Below, in pieces: positions 17,751 to 55,440 of a DNA stretch of 64,000 bases. The position numbers and the translations under genes were made by a program. Position 1 is the stretch's first letter, and each line of letters begins with the position of its first letter. The notes under the pieces were generated by a model. That model saw only the letters and a list, made by a program, of their open reading frames with translations, did no database searches and had not been told where the DNA came from. Source of the stretch: Zygnema cylindricum. Taxonomy: Eukaryota > Streptophyta > Zygnematophyceae > Zygnematales > Zygnemataceae. The DNA is taken from assembly GCA_037447655.1 (NCBI GenBank), contig JBBHKE010001948.1, forward strand, positions 335,639 through 399,638. Reading direction: 5' to 3'.

Positions 17751-17765
17751 CTCCCCTTATTTTTC
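17751..17765 (-). other. Polypurine tract of copia A
   Basis: The minus strand reads aaaaataaggggag directly before the LTR. This is the usual plus-strand priming site for reverse transcription. Confidence 0.75.
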
Positions 17766-20700
17766 TAGTCTATCTTTTCTTTTAGTCCACACTTCTCCCT
17801 ACAAAATGTCAATTTAGGAGAAGGAATTGGCTTAGTCATCAAATCTGGTACCAACTCTCCATCCGGTCTATATTCCAAACTAATTATTTTCTTCTCAACC
17901 TTCTCCCTAACAAAGCTCGAACGAATATCCATATGCATCGCTTTAAAATGATTTTTAGGGTTTGCCGCAATTGGAATCGCAGCTTGATTGTCACAAAATA
18001 TCTTTTGCACTCCATTCTTCATATATCCTTGGTCTTGAAAAAAGGATTTCACCCACATTAATTCTTTCACTGCCGAACAAGCGGCCATATACTCAGCCTC
18101 CATGGTGGACTGAGCAATCACCTTTTTTTGCTTGTTGCTCCAACAACAAGCCCCATTCCCAACATTTAACACATACCCAGAAGTACACCTCCTCATCGCA
18201 GCATCCCTATAATTGGCATCACTCCAAGTGGTGATGTCAGTATAATCCCCTCCCAAATGCAACCACAGATCTCTTGTTCCTATCAATTATCGCATGACCC
18301 TTTTGGTCGCTTCCCAATCTTTTTTCCTATGATCATTTAAACTCCTACTTAATACCCCCACAGTTGTTGCTATATCAAGACGAGTACAGTTCATAAAATA
18401 GATCAAACTACCGACAACGTGTCTGTACGGAATAGTTTGCATGAACTTGCTTTCCTCGAGTCCTAACGCTTTATCTAAGATCAAGACACCCTCTTCTGAG
18501 CTCCCTTGATTTCCCTTCTTTAAGTCCATGGGAGTCTTACAACTATTTGCTTTATCCATTTGAAATTTTTCAAGCATATTCCTTATTGCTTCCTTTTAAG
18601 TTAGTCTAATTTTTTTCTTCTCTCTATCCCTTTCTATCTAAATTCCCAAAATGTACTTTGCCTCTCCCAAGTCCTTCATTTCAAATTTACTCTTTAAATC
18701 TTTTTTCAACGTATTAATGTTCTCCACCGATTTACTAAAAATAAGCAAATCATCCACATAGATAGCAATGAAAATTATGCCTTCGTCATCCTCAAATACA
18801 TAGATGGAATGATCCGAACTGATTCGAATATATCCCAAACTTGTTAAAAACTTGTCGAGCTTCTTGTTCCATTGGCGTGGAGCTTGCTTTAGTCCGTAAA
18901 GGGATTTTATCAGTATGCACACCTTACTTTCTTCTCCTTTCTCCACAAATCCTTTCTGTTGCCGTATGAAGATCTCTTTTTCTAATTCTTTGTGTAAGAA
19001 AGCGGTTTTTATGTCCATCTGGTGCGCTTCTATGTCTTGTGGTGCCTCTAGAAAAAGTAGGATTCGGACGAAGGGAAATCTAACATCCGGAGTGAGGGTA
19101 TTCTCATAATTGATTCCCTCCTTCTGTGTGAACCCCTTTGCTACTAATCTAGCCTTATATCTCTCGATAGTGTTATCCAAATTGAGTTTCAACTTAAATA
19201 CCCACTTCCATCCTATCGGCTTTCTGTCTTGAGGACAATCCACCAACTCCCATGTATTTGCTTCCATAATGGAAGCCATCTCATCATTAACGGCTATCAC
19301 CCATCTACTACTTTGCGGACTATTAATTGCCTCTGAGTATGTCTGGGGTTCGCTCAAATGTGACGGCTTAGTTACCTTGTTGTTCACTTTTCTCTCTTGA
19401 AGTCTCATGTTGCTTCTCCTTCCTCCTTCAAACTCCGACGTTGGAATGGAGGGTAATCTTGGATTTCTCCGGACAACTTCAACTTCTCCCCTATTCGTGA
19501 AGTCCATCTCCGGACGTTCATCGTCCATTTACGGTCTTTCCTCGTTTTGAGCTGGAAGTTGTGACTCCAAGAGACAATCAATCTTGGTCACATTTTTCTC
19601 TTCCTCTGCAAGGCCATGCTGAACTGGAGTTCATTTGGAAAAATCTGAATCTAACTCATTTTCGGATTCAATTCTAATTCTAACCGGTTTAGTGTATTTG
19701 AAGGGATCCATGGACTTCCGTTCATCCATGACTACCAAGTGTTTTACTAGAATTATGTCTTCACTTCCGAGATCATAAACTCTATACCCTTTTACATTTT
19801 CATCATATCCAAGTAAGTATCCCGCCTTTCCTGTTGCATCTAACTTCCAATCAGATTTTTATGTGTTTAAACTAAACACTTGACTTCTGAACACCTTTAA
19901 GTGTGAAATATTAGATTTTCTCCCGGTCCATCTTTCATAAGGTGTTTTTCCTTTTACTGCCGAGGTAAGGACTCTATTTTTGAGATAGTTAGCACAAATC
20001 ATAGCTTCTGCCCAAAAACATTTTCTTATCTTTTTATCTGACAACATAGTATGAGCACTATCACTCAATGTTCGATTTAGTCTCTCTGCTACACCATTTC
20101 ATTTTAAGTTCTTAGGAACAATCTTTTGGTGTTGAACCCCTTCCTTTTTCAAGAAATCCTCAAACTCATTAGAAGTGTATCCCCCCCCAATATCACTCCT
20201 CACTCTCTTTATAGGTGTCTCATTAAGCTTTTCACTCCATGCTTTATACTCCTTAAAATAAACCGAAGCCTCAAGATTTGTTTTTCAACAAGTATACTCT
20301 ACAATATTTAGAACAATCATCAGTGATAGTAAGCATAAATCTTTTCCCTCCAAATTATGGTACTTTGGCCGGTCCCCATATATCAGTGTGAACTAGATCT
20401 AAGACCTTTTCACCCTTATATGTTGCGGCTTTTGGAAAAGGCAACTTGTGGGCCTTTCCTTGAGCACATCCACTAAAATCATTGAAAGTCTCATTGTCTC
20501 CAAAATGTATTCTCTAAAATACACCCATTTTTTTCATTTTCTTCAATCTATCTAGATGCACATATCACAATCTTTTATGCCACGTCATCAAATCACTTAC
20601 ACCAGCATAGTAAACTCCCGTCTTTCAATTACTAAAAATTCAGCCTAAACATTCCTAGGCTACCTTTTTCAGCTATGAAGTACACTTCATTCTCATAGCT

Positions 20701-22151
20701 AGCAACAAAGACTCCTTTCTTCGCATTAGTCTCAAAACCCTTATCATCTTAGACCGACGTAGAGATAAGATTTTTGTTCAACTCTGGAATAAAAAGAACA
20801 TCAAAGAAAGTGACTATAGATGTCTTACCATCAACTAAGACTCTCAAATCCACAGATCCCACTGAATTAGTGGTCACTATTCTCCCATCCCCATACTCTA
20901 TCTCTACAGTATGGATATTTCTCATTTTGGCAAATAATGGTTTTTCTCTACACATATGCATAGAGGCTCCTGAATTAATAATCCATCCATCTTCTGGAGC
21001 TTCTCCTACTCCACTAAAAGCACACTTCTGCCTCCTTGGAATATTCGGCTCACCTTTCACCTCCAGCTCTTCATTGAGGAGGAGTTCTTTATCATCCTCA
21101 TTGAAATCCTCTCCCATAACTTGTGTTGCCACAAATGCCTTTTTTTCCTTGCGGCAAGTTTTCCGACCTGTTCTTCCTTCAATCTCATCGCTGTTAGTTT
21201 AATACACTACGCCATGTAATGTCCCGGCTTCTTACAAAAGTGACAAAGCCCCTTTCGGAGGCCTTGATCCTGATCTGTCATGGTTTCCTCTTCCTCCTCC
21301 ACCAAAGTTTCCATAAGGTTTCTTAGAATCTTTATCCCCCCAATTAGATCCAGCAACTAGTGCTTGAACACTCTTTCCTTCTCTCTGAATCACAATTGTG
21401 CTTTCCCGAACCGAAATCATCCCTACAACGGAGTTCCAGATCCATCGTTGATTTGGCAAGTCCTGAACCCTATTGACAATATTTTCATTATCATTTAGGA
21501 GTTTCATTAACAAAGTATTCACCTTCTCTTTCTTTGTCTCCTTTTTTCGTGCACTCTTGAACTCCATAAAAAACTCGGCCAAGTCATTACAAAAGTCTAA
21601 CATCTTCCCCCCTTTGTACACATATGCGTATACCTTCTGATGGGCCAACTTCTGCTATGGAATCGTACTGCACTTTTAAATGTTGACAAGAGCCTCCCAC
21701 AACTCTATGCCCTCTCCACATATAGATGTGGTGTAGCCACATATTCAGTGAGACGCCCAAGAATAAAATGAGTCACTACAATGTTGTTGAAATCATATAT
21801 TTTACTATCATTTGCCTCGATTTTCTATTCATCTGCTACTGGAACGGATCCAGTAGCCATAGGTGTGAGTTTCTCCTTCCCCTTCTCCTTCCTTGTGTCC
21901 GACACAATGCCTTCTTCAACATCCTCTTCTTCCTCTGCTTTCGCAGATCCTCTTGTGAATCGAGATACTCCAATCCTTGGTGGAACTCCCAATTTTGCGA
22001 ATGGCCGACGCACACGACCACTCACAATGCCTTATAGCCTTTTTTTAAACAATGCACCCCTCATCATGGTTTCCCAATAAGTGAACCCTGTTCCATTGAA
22101 AATGGGCACCCTAAAGGGTGGGCCCATAATTTGTAATTCCGTGACCTCCAT
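17765..22151 (-). pseudogene. gag-pol: Ty1/copia element A gag-pol polyprotein (decayed)
   Basis: The minus strand carries Gag, protease, integrase, reverse transcriptase and RNase H in copia order. Gag starts at an ATG at 22151 (frames to 21235) and has a CHFCKKPGHYMA zinc knuckle after a one-base shift. The protease region at 21010-20760 reads WIINSGASMHMC, so the catalytic Asp of DSG is Asn. Integrase (about 20750-19600) is full of stops; a recognisable piece is SAHTMLSDKKIRKCFWAEA in the frame 20068-19859. Reverse transcriptase at 19528-18638 is open for 296 codons with WKWVFKLKLN, QMDIKTAFLH and IAIYVDDLLIF. RNase H (18577-17765) has CCWSNKQKKVIAQSTMEAEY. A stop or frame break separates RT and RNase H at 18578-18637. 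The long open RT frame beside the ruined integrase suggests uneven decay. Confidence 0.9.
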
Positions 22152-31285: not shown

Positions 31286-32491
<1,206 letters not shown>

Positions 32492-34111: not shown

Positions 34112-35415
34112 GTAAGTTTTTAAATTATTTAAATTATTTTTTACTGCTAAATTTTGTTGATAATTTGTATATTGCCGTTTCATTGTTTTCTTTATTCAGT
34201 TGTTTTATTTATTTATTTCTTTGTTTGTAGTTTTTGGATATTAGTTTTTTAATTTCCTTGAGAACTTGTTTTTTTTATTTTTTATTTAATTCTTTGGCTT
34301 GGTTGCTTTTAAAAAAAAAAAAATGGGCCTTGAAATATATATATTTTTTTGTTTGTGTTTTTAAGCTGAATTCTGAAATAAAACTTGAAAATAATAATAA
34401 TAATCAGAGGAAAAAACCGCACAACTTTTTTTTTGAACAAATCCCATTCACTTCACCAAAAAATAAAGGAAAAAGAAAACACTCTCATTAATTCTGACAG
34501 AAAATTCCTCTCTCTCCCACCCCCCCTTTGTTATTTTTTGGTGTTCATCATATATTTCATTCTTGCACTTTTAAAAGTAAACCTTGTATTTTCATATATG
34601 TTTTTTTTTTTAATATACAACATACAATAATATTATGTATAATTAATATTTTAACGTAAATTAAAAACTCTTAAGTTCAATTAAAAACGAAGAATACCCT
34701 AACAGTGATAACTATTTCCTAAAAATAATAATCATTCTCTCTCTTTTTCTCCGCTCCCTCTCTCCCTCTCTCTCCCTCCCTCTTCCTCTCTCTCCCTCCC
34801 TCCTAAACAAGTTTTTTTTTCAACACGCCAAAAAAGGAGACTAATAATNNNNNNNNNNGAGAGAGGGAGAGAGAGAGGGAGAGAGAGAGGGAGGGAGGGA
34901 GGGAGAGGGAGAGGGAGAGGGAGAGGGAGAGAGAGAGAGAGAGGGAGAGAGGGAGAGAGAGGGAGAGAGAAAGAGAGAAAGAGAGAGAGAGGGAGAGAGA
35001 GAGAGAGTGGGAGGAAAAGAAGTTCAAGAGATTGGAAAAATGAAAGAAACAAATAACAAAAAAAAATGAGAACAACGAATGAAGTAGAATTAAAAAAAAA
35101 AACATATCAAAACGCGACAAAAATCGATTCAAAATTTCCAAACAATCTCAGTTTCACAACAATAAAAATGGGCAAAAAAAAAAAAACAGGTCAAATAAGA
35201 CAAAAACAATAGATATCATCACAAATTGGGACAAGAAAGCGTTGAAGTTTTAATAAAAAACCAGGGAAAAAAAAAATTATAGTAAACGTGAGATATAAAT
35301 GAAAAAAGAAAAACAGACCCAAATAGGACAAAAAAAAAGTACCACAAAAAAAGAAAAACCGTTGTTGGCTTCCTTTTCCTTGAAACCCTTCTTTTTATTA
35401 TTATTAGGGACTTAC
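34112..35415. other. Intron/intergenic DNA with GA array and N gap
   Basis: This is AT-rich DNA with A and T runs and a CT/GA array at 34735-35010 that contains ten N at 34849-34858. Array length across the gap is unknown. It separates the plus-strand exon at 33288 from the minus-strand exon at 35416. No exon is supported here. Confidence 0.6.
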
Positions 35416-38441: not shown

Positions 38442-38507
38442 CGTCAGTTTCCAGGGACGAGCTTCACGGGGTTAAAATTGTCGAAGCGTGATGTGGACAG
38501 AGGGGGA

Positions 38508-39002
<495 letters not shown>

Positions 39003-49579: not shown

Positions 49580-49860
49580 TGTTCACAACTGGAGCATATG
49601 TCCTTGTGTAGTTTACTCCCTCTGTTTCTCAAAATCCTTTACACACTAGTCTAGCCTTGTACTTTACTACTTCACCTGATGCACCAGTTTTTATTTTGAA
49701 GATCCATTTCGCATCAATAGACTTTTTCCCTTCTGGTAATGTTACCTCCTCAAATGTCCGATTTTCTACAATTGACTTATACTCCTTCTCCTATGTCGGC
49801 TTCAACTTCAATTCTCAATCACACGATTTTCTCTTTTCAATGAATCGTAACTGCTTTTAA
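49580..49860 (-). pseudogene. Copia reverse-transcriptase fragment
   Basis: The minus strand reads SIVENRTFEEVTLPEGKKSI, DAKWIFKIKTG and VVKYKARLVCKGF, a stop, then GVNYTRTYAPVV, the start of a copia RT. No other part of the element is present. It lies just downstream of the GH16 gene. Confidence 0.85.
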
Positions 49861-50271: not shown

Positions 50272-51215
50272 TTATTTAACCGGAGAAGTAATTTGAATAT
50301 TCCGATACTGATAGACAAAAGGAGCATCTTTTCCGTCCCAAACTCCCGACCATGATCCATTATTAACCTCACTTGCATTCCAAATGGAAGCGTATACAAA
50401 TTGAGGTCTAACTGGATAGTACTCAACCCTACTCTTAAAAACTTCTCGGCCCAAAACACCGTCTACAAGCCACCTGCAAATACAAGGAAACAAAGCAAAT
50501 AGGAAAAAAAAAATGATGTTTAGCTCTTTTATTTTGTAAAATAAATGGTCAATTTCTTGAATGCTAGCTTAGAGCAATAGGTGTTTGCAAAGTTTAAAAC
50601 ATTCAAACCTTTTGGGATGGATGAAACAAAAGGGAGAGAGAGAGAGAACCCACCAAATGCTTACAGGTGACCATCGAATAGTATATGTATGAAAATCCGT
50701 GGAACAATCAAATCCGAGGTCCAGCCAAAGTTCATTTCCCCCTTTTCCGTTGATATAAAAGTTGGTTTGTACCACTGTTTTGTTGTATCCTATCCACTTA
50801 AAATCAATTTCGTCCTGATCACTCGTCCCTTCCCGAGATGATAGCTGGCGAATAAAGAAATTCCCAAAAACACACGTAATAAGACAACAGAAAATTATTA
50901 CATCACATTTTGCTATTTTCCAGATGCGTGCACAGAAGGAAAGCTTTTACTTTTGGGATTACTGGGGGTTTTTTGAGAAATTTTATCTTTTTGGGATTTG
51001 TGAGAAAACTGAAAGGAATAAAAGGAAGTGAGGTATCTCAGAGGCAGAAAGAGATAAAAAAAAGGTGTTGTTTTGTAATCTTTGTTTCGCTTCTAATTTC
51101 TTTTTTTTTCTTACATAAAATGAATGCAAAAGTCCACTCGTATTTCCATCGGCACATTTGAACTTTGTCGTGAATTCACCGGAGAAGTAGGATAAACCCG
51201 AATGGAACCGACCTC
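50272..51215 (-). CDS. GH16 module 2 exons (nucleophile kept, acid/base lost)
   Basis: Exon 51115-51215 gives GGRFHSGLSYFSGEFTTKFK and NTSGLLHSFY. Exon 50654-50844 gives the motif DEIDFKWIG, in which the Glu expected at the end of DEIDFE is Lys (AAG at 50797-50799), while the nucleophile Glu is intact (GAA at 50809-50811). Exon 50272-50473 gives WLVDGVLGREVF, VYASIWNASE and APFVYQYRNIQI and the stop. The junction TG|G makes a continuous SIWWLVDG across a GTGGGT donor at 50653; an upstream GTAAGC would break the frame. All phases agree (1-0, 0-2, 2-end). Confidence 0.85.
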
Positions 51216-54200
51216 CTGCATATGAAACAGAGAACTTTTCAGGTTTTTCGTTAATTATTTTCAGGTGGTTTCTTTCATGAGGCTAAATGGTAACTCCAAG
51301 AAAATCAGGCTTGAAAATTTATTTTGGAATGATGACGTCTCTCTATCTATTTCTGTTTTTGTCATTTTTACTTGCACCATGTCTTTCTTTCTAGGGGATA
51401 GAGGAAGAAGGATGAAGACTGTCTTCATGCCCACAATGTGACTCGCGTATAAAATGTAGTACTTTATACCTGAAAGCCATTGTACAAATGTAATAATCTC
51501 TTGCTTCCTCCCCCCTCACCCCCTCAGAAAAACTAAGCATCCACATCTTTGCTCCCCACCCACACTCACCGCAATTAGAGTTATCAAATGTAATATTTGC
51601 CGAACTGCTTGACCTTTCGAAGCTCATGTGGTCCTCGCAATAATCGGTCACAATAGTCAACATTGGTGCATTCACGGCTTTTTGGTTAACATTTGGCATA
51701 ATAAGGAGAGGACTTCTAATGGTTACATTTTTGAAAGAAGCGGTAACGGAATCCATTTCCGTACCCAGATCCACAGCTGTTTTACCACGTGGGCATTGTG
51801 TTTGTCTCTAAAGCTTCGATTCCAAAATTTTAACGCATTTCATTTCCCGAGGGAACCGGGGCGTACCACGAGGGTTTGTCGTACATGTGTAGGATATTGT
51901 TGTCGCTCATCCATCTAGTGTCAATCAAGTTAACACATCATGAGGTGGTGTTTTTATAGAAATTGGTGTTGTTTTATCAAATTAACAAGTTTGGGAATGT
52001 TGTTTTGGTAGCTACTGTAATTTTATTCAGATTGACACATTTGAAGATATTTTTTTAATTTTATTCTTCTTTAGAAGACCTTTCAGCACCTAGGGACACA
52101 AAAAATAATAGTTCTTGTTTTAGATTACTTTTTCAGGACAGACTTTAGTTTCCCTCCTTTTCTTTTTCCGTTACTCACGTGCTCGTGAACTTTTGTCCTG
52201 CTACTTTAGTGTATAGGAACTCGAGAATTTGTGACGTTTCTGTGCCATACTTTTGACTCAATAAAACGAATTAGACAAACAAGCTCAAAGTTTTTTCCCC
52301 AGCAATTCTAGCACAGCTAAAAATAACACCGTTGAAGACTAATACTGTCGTTTCTGTTCAGAATTTCTCCTTTGTTGTCATAGCTGATGACACACTAACT
52401 TTGGTACAATTCTTCGCGATGAAGTTCAACCCATCCAAACACAAATTTGTTTACTTAAACATATTTAGTTACTAATTCTAAAAAGCAATTAAAGCCTATA
52501 AACAGGGCGAATCAAAACGGGAACTTTTCAAAAGATAAATTGAGGATGTCCATGTTGCATGTTTTATTCAGATCCAAGAAGATCGGAATAAAAGAGCTTA
52601 TAAAACCACAAACACTCCATAAAGGAAAACTCAAAAATTACCCGTTGTTTATTATTAACTTTATGGTGTTTAGAATCTTGAAAGTAATTAAAACCATGCA
52701 GAAACCCGCCATCCTCTTTCCCTTAAAAAACTACGAAAAAAAAGGTTAGAGTTAACGACTCACAAAATACTTTTGGGAGTCCAGTAAATGGAATATTTAT
52801 GGTAATCTTCTGCACAATCATATCCAAGATCTACCGCAGTTCTTGCACTCGTAATACCGTTATCAATAGTTTGAATCATCCCGAGGTTGCGATGTTCCCC
52901 TCTAATTTCAAATACAATGGAGGAGCGATTTGAGTCGGCATAATTGGTGGCCAACTGGATTGGAAGAACAGAATAAGGACAGAATAGAAAAGAAGACAAC
53001 ATCAGATAAGGCAAATTGGTCAGAGTTGAAAAGTGGAATGGCAACACATTTAGACGGAGAGAGGAGTAATGACAAAAAATGAGAGTTTGTTGATGCCAAG
53101 AATATTTTTTACATTCTATTTTAGCTGTGGAAATCAGCCATAAAATGGCTTGAGTTGGAAAGCATGAAAGATTATCGACTCCCAAAATGCTTTTTATAGG
53201 AGCGCAGATTTTTTTTTTTCCCGTAAACCATAAAAACGGAGTATTGTCCAAAACCGGCTGATAAAAATACTCACAAAGAACGAGGTCAGAACTCCCGTGG
53301 TGTTCCCGGAAGGACAACGAATATTTGCGGAAAAAATGCCCGACGAAAAACCGGGATTGGAATAAACTCGAGTACCTATAAAGGTGACATTTCCACCGTT
53401 ACTAAAAAAGAAAAGAAATATGTCATGTGCTTATTGTAGATCTTAACCCCTAAAAGAGAAAAGCCAATGATGGGTACCAAGGCAAACTCAATATTCTGTC
53501 GCTAGAATTATCACAAGGACTCACCTTTTTTGAATAATTTTGCATTTCGAAAGATCTTTTCTAGATTTTCTATTAGTTATTTGTATTTTTCAGGAGGAAG
53601 TACTACTATCTCACTATTTTTAGTGATTTGACTCTCACATACCTGTGCCATTTTTGAAATGAGTGAGATCGTAGTTCCCGAGAGCGGCATTTCCGATGGG
53701 TTCAGATCGGCTGTCAATAATCACACTTTTGAGACGAGTCGGTTTGCTGAATTCCCCGACTAGCTGGGATTTCAACTTTGCTGCCAAACAGGCAATTGCG
53801 GCTGTGATTATCGTTCCAGCCAATTGGAGATCTCCTCCTTCCACGGTATTTCCCCTTGCTATGCATTCGTTAACCAAAACCATGACTCTGGAAAGATATT
53901 TGTGAGTTACACTGTAATCGAGAACTGCGAGACTGGCCTGGAAATACATAAACGAAAACAGTAATTTTTTGACATTTTCATGGAAAGTCGAGGTCTGTGA
54001 AATTATTTTCATTATTCTGTTGCTGTTTTAGTTCTCAGATCGAGGATTTATGGTCCAAGCGGAAAATTTAACTAGGAATTCATCACAATGTCACAGAGAA
54101 TTTGTTTCATTCCTTGCTATTAGAATTAGGGTGGAAAATTAGCAAAAATAAGCTGCCATTGTTTTCGAGTTTTTCACATTTTTTCCAATTTCGTTTTCCT

Positions 54201-54640
54201 TCGCCTTTCTTTAAAACACTAAACTGCGTTTGGAAACAAATTCAGTCCTTTTCCGGTTAAAGTTTATGACTTTATAATGTGGATATATTTGTCTGAAAAG
54301 CATAATACACCCTAACTTTACATTTTTCTACAGACTGTAGATTACTCTTTTCTTATTGTGTAACACGGGTACCAAAATGCCCAAGAAGAAAAAAAGGCTT
54401 ACCGTGGCAAGATCAAGTGCCCCATATGCTTTTCTCATATTTCTTTTACAAATTCGGGCTGCGATAGACCTCTGTGTGTACTTTTTGGCGTTTTGAATGG
54501 ACGAAGGGAGATCGTCCGTACAGCTTCCATCTATGAACCGGAAGCTTCCCGCACATCTTCCTAGGCAACTTCCTTGAGACCGTCTCCGGCGTACTTCTGG
54601 TGTCCTTCGTGGGAATCTTCCTGCACGCTTTGCTCAGCTC
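50272..54640 (-). CDS. Tandem GH16 (XTH-like) protein gene, at least 8 exons
   Basis: Minus-strand exons at 50272-50473, 50654-50844, 51115-51215, 51570-51914, 52764-52954, 53275-53401, 53639-53937 and one ending at 54403 join with compatible phases. The product has an Ala-rich helical N-terminal part, GH16 module 1, a linker and GH16 module 2, ending at TAA 50272-50274. GH16 of the XTH type cuts and may re-join cell-wall glucans such as xyloglucan at the cell surface (family knowledge). Each module has the GH16 core order: SGxF strand, TSGLL/TTGVL, catalytic-motif strand, D-x-G-x-D-C-x-x-D-[FY]-H-x-Y-[ST]-I, W-x-x-D, WN[AR]S. Both modules lack one catalytic Glu. Module 1 needs one single-base correction near 51845-51850. 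The 5' end and any signal peptide were not found. The two modules share one exon (51570-51914), so this is one gene, not two neighbours. Confidence 0.8.
51570..51914 (-). CDS. Bridging exon: end of GH16 module 1, linker, start of module 2
   Basis: The exon (acceptor gacactag at 51915, donor GTGAGT at 51569) opens with WMSDNNILHMYDKPSWYAPV in one frame. It continues from about 51850 in another frame as ALKFWNRSFRDKHNAHVVK, then SVTASFKNVTI and a linker to NITFDNSNC. Removing one base in a GGG/AAA stretch near 51845-51850 unites the two and also makes the exon length fit the flanking phases. It may be an assembly error or a disabling mutation. The linker's DYC and SNC cysteines may form a disulfide (inference). 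Confidence 0.75.
52764..53401 (-). CDS. GH16 module 1 exons (acid/base kept, nucleophile lost)
   Basis: Exon 53275-53401 gives GTRVYSNPGFSSGIFSANIR and GNTTGVLTSFF. Exon 52764-52954 has the catalytic-motif strand as SSIVFEIRG, where GH16 XTH-type enzymes have DEIDFEFLG: the nucleophile position is Ser (52919-52921), the helper Asp is Val, and the acid/base Glu is kept (52907-52909). This exon is 191 bp, exactly like its counterpart in module 2. It ends SIYWTPKSIL at a GTGAGT donor in phase 2. Confidence 0.85.
52955..53274 (-). other. Intron between two GH16 module 1 exons
   Basis: It runs from donor GTGAGT at 53274 to acceptor aatccag at 52955. An ORF reading through it is a chance extension of the exon frame. 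Confidence 0.75.
53639..53937 (-). CDS. N-terminal exon of the tandem GH16 gene
   Basis: This 299-bp exon starts after acceptor ggccag at 53938 in phase 0 and leaves through donor GTGAGA at 53638 in phase 2. It encodes ASLAVLDYSVTHKYLSRVMV and then an Ala-rich helical stretch (GGDLQLAGTIITAAIACLAA), then GNYDLTHFKNGTG, which leads into GH16 module 1. The helical part was not recognised; a pectinesterase-inhibitor-like four-helix fold is conceivable but unproven. Confidence 0.68.
54403..54640 (-). CDS. Upstream exon of the tandem GH16 gene (5' limit open)
   Basis: The frame ends at donor GTAAGC at 54402 in phase 0 and reads back through SIAARICKRNMRKAYGALDL and AKKYTQR to GSCTDDLPSSIQ and a Cys/Arg-rich stretch, open to a TGA near 54640. 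No pyrimidine-rich acceptor or ATG was found, so the upper coordinate is only a limit. The downstream half clearly continues the helical N-terminal region. Confidence 0.5.
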
Positions 54641-54699
54641 GAGGTTTACTCCCAAGGTAATGCCACGTGTCAGCAAACCATTTGGTGAGAGTTGTGCCA

Positions 54700-55440
54700 C
54701 GTGGTGAATGTTAGGATTTTGTACTGAGAACTCATTTAGCGACGAGACATTCTCGTAGCTAAAGTAGCGACGACCAGCGACGAAGTATTTTCGTCGCTGA
54801 ATATTTGAAGTGCCAGCGACGAAGTAGTTTCGTAGAGTAGAGACAAGATGTGAGAAGGAGGAGAGATAGGAAAAGTGAAGGAGAGAGGAACATCCTGGAG
54901 TGGGGATGGAGGGAGGAAGGGAAAGAGAGGAGGGGAGCGGGAAATCAAGAGAGGGAACAAAAACGAGTGGGTGGTAGAGTCAGAGAGAGAGGAAAAACTC
55001 GAGGGAAGAATGGAAGGAGTGATACAGGAGGAAGTGCAGGAGAGGGAGGAATTGAAGGAGGTAGAGGGGAGGAACGAGAGTGCGAAGGATAGGACGACGG
55101 GCTACTAGAGACGGGAAGGAGAACTGTTGTTTTGGACGCTTATGGTAGAAGGCGGATATCTAGGTCTGATGTTTCTACTAGGTTATAGGGTCTGTGTGAT
55201 GTACGGAAGGTCAACGACGAGCAATGTACTATGACTTTGTCGTTTCTGGTTTGCGCGAGTGGGCCACGGTCAAAGCGGGCAGCAATGATCTCTTCGCGCG
55301 TTTCGGTTTGTTGTCGGCAGAAACGTATCGATGTTTTGGCAAATCTTTGCGGACTGCCGGAGGAAATTTCATTGGACAGAGTAAAATAAAACGAAGAACG
55401 ACAAAGTTGAAGATCCTGCTGTACCATTCTACTATAATAA
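54700..55440. other. AGCGACGAAGTA repeats and GA-rich DNA
   Basis: Between 54735 and 54835 the words TAGCGACGA and CAGCGACGAAGTA recur four to five times in both orientations, reminiscent of subterminal repeats of CACTA elements. It is followed by a purine-rich tract (54840-55110). ORFs there are Arg/Glu/Gly-rich and compositional. Confidence 0.5.

Follow-up and report, generated by a model that had tools for sequence, protein, structure and literature searches.

EG16 plant endo-glucanases, as known from VvEG16, consist of a single GH16 domain. The GH16 fold is also found in beta-GRP/GNBP, which are non-catalytic binding proteins of the GH16_4 group. PMC6827312 describes EG16 as the evolutionary link that joins the glucanases of bacteria to the XTHs of plants, uses 717 EG16 orthologues, and reports that one or both catalytic residues are lost in ~9% of GH16_4 and 0.7% of GH16_3, and in 1% of the remaining GH16 members. 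PMC11096116 places an expansion of GH16_20 in Zygnematophyceae, and PMC12820192 states that XTHs of GH16_20 were recovered in Embryophyta and Zygnematophyceae only.

We analyzed a 64,000-nucleotide stretch of the Zygnema cylindricum genome (the window), which contains a locus with two GH16 modules, together with related loci from the same assembly. EG16 structures (VvEG16; PDB 5dze, 5dzf, 5dzg, 5sv8) were the best solved relatives of both modules (7e-51 for module 2 and 4e-14 for module 1 of the window, and 4e-19 for module 1 of the relative L025). Like EG16, the family has the motif QDEIDFE and lacks an XET_C extension, for which no match was found at E up to 0.1 in any of the four full-length relatives tested, nor at E up to 1 in module 2 of the window. 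Unlike EG16, it has two GH16 modules and an N-terminal region, and its module 1 is without the nucleophile and the helper Asp. Because two GH16 stretches were present in all four full-length relatives tested, the whole protein was not filed as a plain EG16. The XTHs (GH16_20) belong to the same GH16 clan of plant wall enzymes, and XTH-type exons occur in this genome, but the family differs from them by the missing XET_C and matches VvEG16 more closely than it does the XTH chain 1umz. Module 1 resembles the non-catalytic GH16_4 proteins in having a GH16 fold without catalytic residues; however, these are described as a different subfamily from animals and fungi, whereas module 1 here is plant-like and of EG16 type, and shares its protein with a module whose motif is intact. 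Among solved structures, the best matches of module 1 were VvEG16 chains. No earlier description of a plant protein with two GH16 modules was recognized among titles and abstract openings of the open-licence literature. Judged by its sequence, the combination of a pseudo-EG16 and an EG16 module would be a variant of the known EG16 kind for which we found no earlier report in open-licence papers.

Exons and motifs of the window locus

The gene lies on the minus strand and its 5′ end extends to ~54893, beyond the range given in the initial annotation. Exon A (54403..54893), which corresponds to an apparent signal peptide and the start of the N-terminal region, is disrupted and was located by DNA alignment with exon A of L009 (359/461 aligned bases identical). 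Three copies of a 21-nt repeat, spaced 38–39 bp apart, lie at 54736..54833, inside the stretch of this exon that aligns poorly with L009. Exon B (53643..53937; AG/GT borders, 87% identity to L009) holds the remainder of the N-terminal region and the first strand of module 1. Module 1 continues in exon C1 (53275..53375, 101 bp) and exon D1 (52764..52954, 191 bp), whose motif RSSIVFE has its Ser codon at 52919-52921, Val at 52913-52915 and Glu at 52907-52909. The last exon of module 1 is fused to the first exon of module 2 in exon E1X (51570..51914), which agrees with the open E1X of L011 at 310 of 344 aligned bases. A shorter alternative, exon X (51570..51805), is predicted from a possible cryptic acceptor (AG at 51806-51807) and would by-pass both lesions of E1X in frame. 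Module 2 is completed by exon C2 (51115..51215, 101 bp), exon D2 (50654..50844, 191 bp; motif QDEIDFK, Glu codon at 50809-50811 and Lys codon AAG at 50797-50799) and exon E2 (50272..50473), which ends in a TAA stop at 50272-50274. When joined via X, exons B, C1, D1, X, C2, D2 and E2 form one open frame.

The two catalytic exons thus read as originally described, both 191 bp long, in the same phase and with SSIVFE in module 1 and DEIDFK in module 2. D1 and D2 have AG/GT borders and match each other in tblastn (E ~1e-8), as do C1 and C2 (E 9e-6). Pfam Glyco_hydro_16 was matched by both modules (E=1e-38 for module 2, E=4.2e-12 for module 1). In alignment with VvEG16 (QDEIDFE), the nucleophile, helper Asp and acid/base positions are occupied by Ser, Val and Glu in module 1 and by Glu, Asp and Lys in module 2. 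Plain tblastn had indicated that module 1 has no last exon of its own. This was rejected, as relatives revealed the exon, which in intact relatives runs into the first exon of module 2 without a stop. Frameshift-aware alignment of this exon using the window alone gave no score clearly above shuffles.

Elsewhere in the window, long minus-strand frames at 17765-21654 resemble what we take to be pieces of a Copia-type retrotransposon (integrase, reverse transcriptase and RNase H motifs), and a short minus-strand frame at 49629-49790, just downstream of the GH16 gene, presumably resembles the beginning of a Copia reverse transcriptase. Low-complexity frames in the list of open reading frames mark long simple repeats, AT-type and GA-rich, at ~31600-32000 and 38500-39000. 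Frames with X residues at ~34800-34900 suggest that the assembly has a short stretch of N there. Neither Rfam nor tRNA scans gave a match in the window. Pfam matches to RdRP_5 (0.0039, below the cut-off), DUF478 and KCTD11_21_C in the window were taken as chance, as were the remaining sub-threshold matches in the search with the family's N-terminal region.

A two-module family in the same genome

Relatives were sought in the window's own assembly (352.8 Mb, 2689 contigs). A six-frame PF00722 search gave at least 56 exon-level matches. A search with a module-2 exon gave at least 67, of which the best 19 were the window and 18 other modelled loci; weaker matches (C2131:447710, C1755:50826, C1387) fell outside this set. 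Five stretches in viral contigs matched a pattern used to look for relatives, and none was confirmed.

Seven relatives were modelled from end to end, all of them open and with GT-AG at every modelled intron (L009, 630 aa; L011, 632 aa; L012, 648 aa; L015, 643 aa, with the start of exon D1 moved by hand to the nearest AG; L017, 648 aa; L020, 848 aa; and L025, 749 aa). The order in intact members is an apparent signal peptide, a helical N-terminal region, a pseudo-EG16 module and an EG16 module with an intact motif. Signal peptides were judged by eye, and the family proteins are apparently secreted proteins of the cell wall. In relatives, the last exon of module 1, which in most begins with W-x-x-D, continues into the first exon of module 2 with no intervening stop, L016 being an exception with E1X out of frame. 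The alternative of two separate tandem genes was ruled out, as the two modules meet within one stop-free exon in intact relatives. The proposal that one gene carries both modules was therefore borne out by the intact relatives. The N-terminal region weakly resembles pectin methylesterase/invertase inhibitors (PMEI, PF04043), being helical and having conserved Cys residues (six sequences). We treat this as a lead and not as membership, since only L015, one of six members, matched PF04043 (E 3.5e-4), at 21.2 bits against a cut-off of 29. A PDB profile search with the six-member N-terminal alignment at E up to 10 had a PMEI chain, 1xg2_B, as its sole match (E 0.35).

Several copies stood apart in other ways. 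L020 and L021, on opposite strands of one contig (C351), have a long acidic stretch ahead of the helical N-terminal region. Contig G000:C1930 has four near-identical two-module copies within ~45 kb, two per strand (L031-L034). L036 (C374) and L037 (C1602) are EG16-like, with an intact QDEIDFE and a catalytic exon split by a further intron; no second module was found in the stretch examined for either.

Module 2, which contains the PF00722 GH16 domain and has VvEG16 as its closest solved relative, kept an intact E-x-D-x-E (DEIDFE or DEIDWE) in 18 of the 19 modelled copies, the window alone having Lys. These copies are not independent, as L020/L021, L014/L024 and L031-L034 are near-identical and the tree gives ~5 distinct groups. 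Two remnants outside the 19 (L038, L039) also read QDEIDFE. For module 1, at least 27 matches of its type were found, and 19 copies were counted, namely L029 and 18 loci with two modules, the window among them. L010 and L030 (D1 cut short) were excluded, and C38, C1573 and C2131:456656 lie outside the counted copies. At the nucleophile position all 19 carry Ser, Ala or Gly, and the helper position is taken by Val, Ile, Thr, Phe, Leu or Gly. None has a complete E-x-D-x-E, and the acid/base Glu is kept in 18, L026 having Asp. As the losses are common to all 19 copies, they are old, and the description of module 1 as a pseudo-enzyme holds across the family. The segment SxW(N/D)AS was present in 14/14 module 2s vs 0/17 module 1s. 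L026 (C2212) is the most divergent two-module copy; its module 1 reads GIGLD and its D1 is without the expected donor at its end.

In a 28-row tree, all 13 module-1 rows fell on one side of a branch (support 96/88), with long branches, above all that of L026 module 1. Without this row, and with two XTH-type rows added, the 12 remaining module 1s were on one side of a branch with support 100/100. On the other side were the module 2s with the VvEG16 and XTH rows; module 2 alone was not a clade in the best tree, and a single module-2 clade was not rejected (p-AU 0.329). Rows left out of the trees were near-copies (L021, L024, L032-L034), partial or broken loci (L029, L030) and module 1 of L010.

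Damage is common among the relatives. L010 is missing its 5′ part. In L029, C1 contains a stop and no later exon was found in the stretch examined; in L030, B contains a stop, and C2 to E2 are absent from the stretch examined. Stops interrupt module 1 of L014 and L024, whose module 2 is open. The D1 acceptor of L016 is lost and its E1X shifted, and L039 is a remnant.

Status of the window copy and of module 1

The window copy carries lesions in two exons besides its changed motif. Compared with L009, exon A has a rearranged middle, a TAG at 54561-54563 in the L009-matching frame and a loss of 4 nt near 54537. Exon E1X, at 90% identity to that of L011, is interrupted by TAA at 51830-51832 and has gained one base near 51784. 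The Lys of module 2 is a private one-base change, AAG where relatives have GAG or GAA. We consider it likely that the locus belongs to a two-module EG16-type multigene family, in which an old pseudo-GH16 module 1 precedes a module 2 with a full motif, and that it was inactivated recently. Its exons A and E1X are broken, so that the gene's product is presumably lost, and the Glu-to-Lys change at the acid/base position is one further private change beside these breaks. The two catalytic losses of the window are thus separate and non-complementary, because relatives show an old module 1 loss and a private Lys. The initial annotation had taken them as complementary and non-random; the loss in module 1 is instead common to 19/19 copies, and Lys in module 2 is confined to the window, with 18/19 intact. 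It had also held that neither window module should be a normal hydrolase. The motifs agree with this, but the state of the copy looks like damage and not design. The Glu that corrected reads might have restored is present in module 2 of the relatives, and the window assembly reads Lys.

An unlikely alternative is continued expression of the window copy, starting elsewhere and spliced at the cryptic acceptor (51806-51807), with a two-module glucan-binding protein devoid of any catalysis as the product. The single open frame obtained through X is consistent with this, and so is the substitution pattern on the window branch, where 28 non-synonymous and 23 synonymous changes over ~766:217 sites give a ratio of ~0.34 (C1, D1, X, C2, D2, E2); the corresponding ratios are ~0.29 for L009 and ~0.09 for L011. 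As this ratio is not 1 and the counted exons are still open, long neutral decay is not shown, and either the decay is recent or something is still constrained. Against expression, the exon with the apparent signal peptide is disrupted, and the by-pass removes ~36 codons of the module 1 last exon that intact relatives keep. By its structure, the window copy is best read as a recent pseudogene whose branch still shows constraint.

At the level of the family, module 1 could be functionless and merely decaying behind an active module 2, which we regard as quite unlikely. Module 1 is indeed less conserved than module 2: identity of the catalytic exon between subfamilies is 32–41% in module 1 (six pairs) vs 59–65% in module 2 (three pairs), so that module 1 diverges faster between subfamilies, and the stops in module 1 of L014 and L024, beside an open module 2, also fit decay. 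However, pairwise dN/dS of module 1 (C1+D1) was 0.07–0.35 in 8/8 pairs (the pairs overlap, two have dS > 2, and stop codons of L014 were skipped), by which module 1 looks maintained. Values were 0.17–0.44 for E1X in the five pairs giving a value and 0.04–0.32 for module 2 in the seven pairs giving a value. In addition, the seven full-length frames are open, and 7/63 columns are invariant across 12 module 1s (L026 left out), with Glu, Cys, His, Tyr and Trp among the invariant residues and the lone Glu of the motif among the columns. Random decay of both motifs in relatives, with elevated dN/dS, was thus not found, dN/dS not being elevated in the family; it is the window copy itself that carries disabling lesions.

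It is highly improbable that errors of assembly or sequencing produced the Lys codon and the lesions and that the true copy is as intact as its relatives. The draft state of the assembly (2689 contigs) and the position of the extra base near 51784, which adjoins a short run of A, would allow for errors, but the Lys codon differs by a simple G-to-A substitution, the stop consists of two substitutions within otherwise 90% identical DNA, the whole repeat-bearing stretch of exon A is replaced, and the lesions are several, independent and of differing kinds. Finally, the suggestion that the two modules act in trans, each supplying the residue missing in the other, matches the pattern of this one window copy only and has next to no probability, as module 2 needs no complement in 18/19 modelled copies, module 1 is without further active-site features (SxW(N/D)AS, 0/17), and the window copy is broken.

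Possible roles of the two modules

Returning to the reading of the locus as an inactivated member of a two-module family, module 2 of intact members would act as a retaining EG16-type glucanase, with the mechanism usual in GH16, and would cleave or transfer a substrate that, by family kinship, may be beta-glucan or xyloglucan. Module 1 lost its nucleophile and helper Asp long ago while keeping the acid/base Glu. It is predicted to be unable to work by the retaining mechanism and is most simply seen as a pseudo-enzyme, possibly a non-catalytic glucan-binding or positioning module kept beside module 2.

Engineered glycosynthases keep the acid/base Glu and have Ser, Ala or Gly as the nucleophile. 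By analogy, the pseudo-module may have kept a glycosynthase-like half of the machinery in an expanded, secreted PMEI-like/pseudo-EG16/EG16 family, and may hold the acceptor for glucan transfer by its active neighbor or join in that transfer; we regard this as very doubtful.

The window copy was a trap that comparison with relatives corrected: one damaged copy mimicked a pair of complementary half-enzymes, and its relatives reveal an old pseudo-module and a recent private mutation. For the family as a whole, an EG16 domain duplicated within one protein, with the first copy an apparently maintained pseudo-enzyme, provides a natural test of how an enzyme domain may turn into a helper module.
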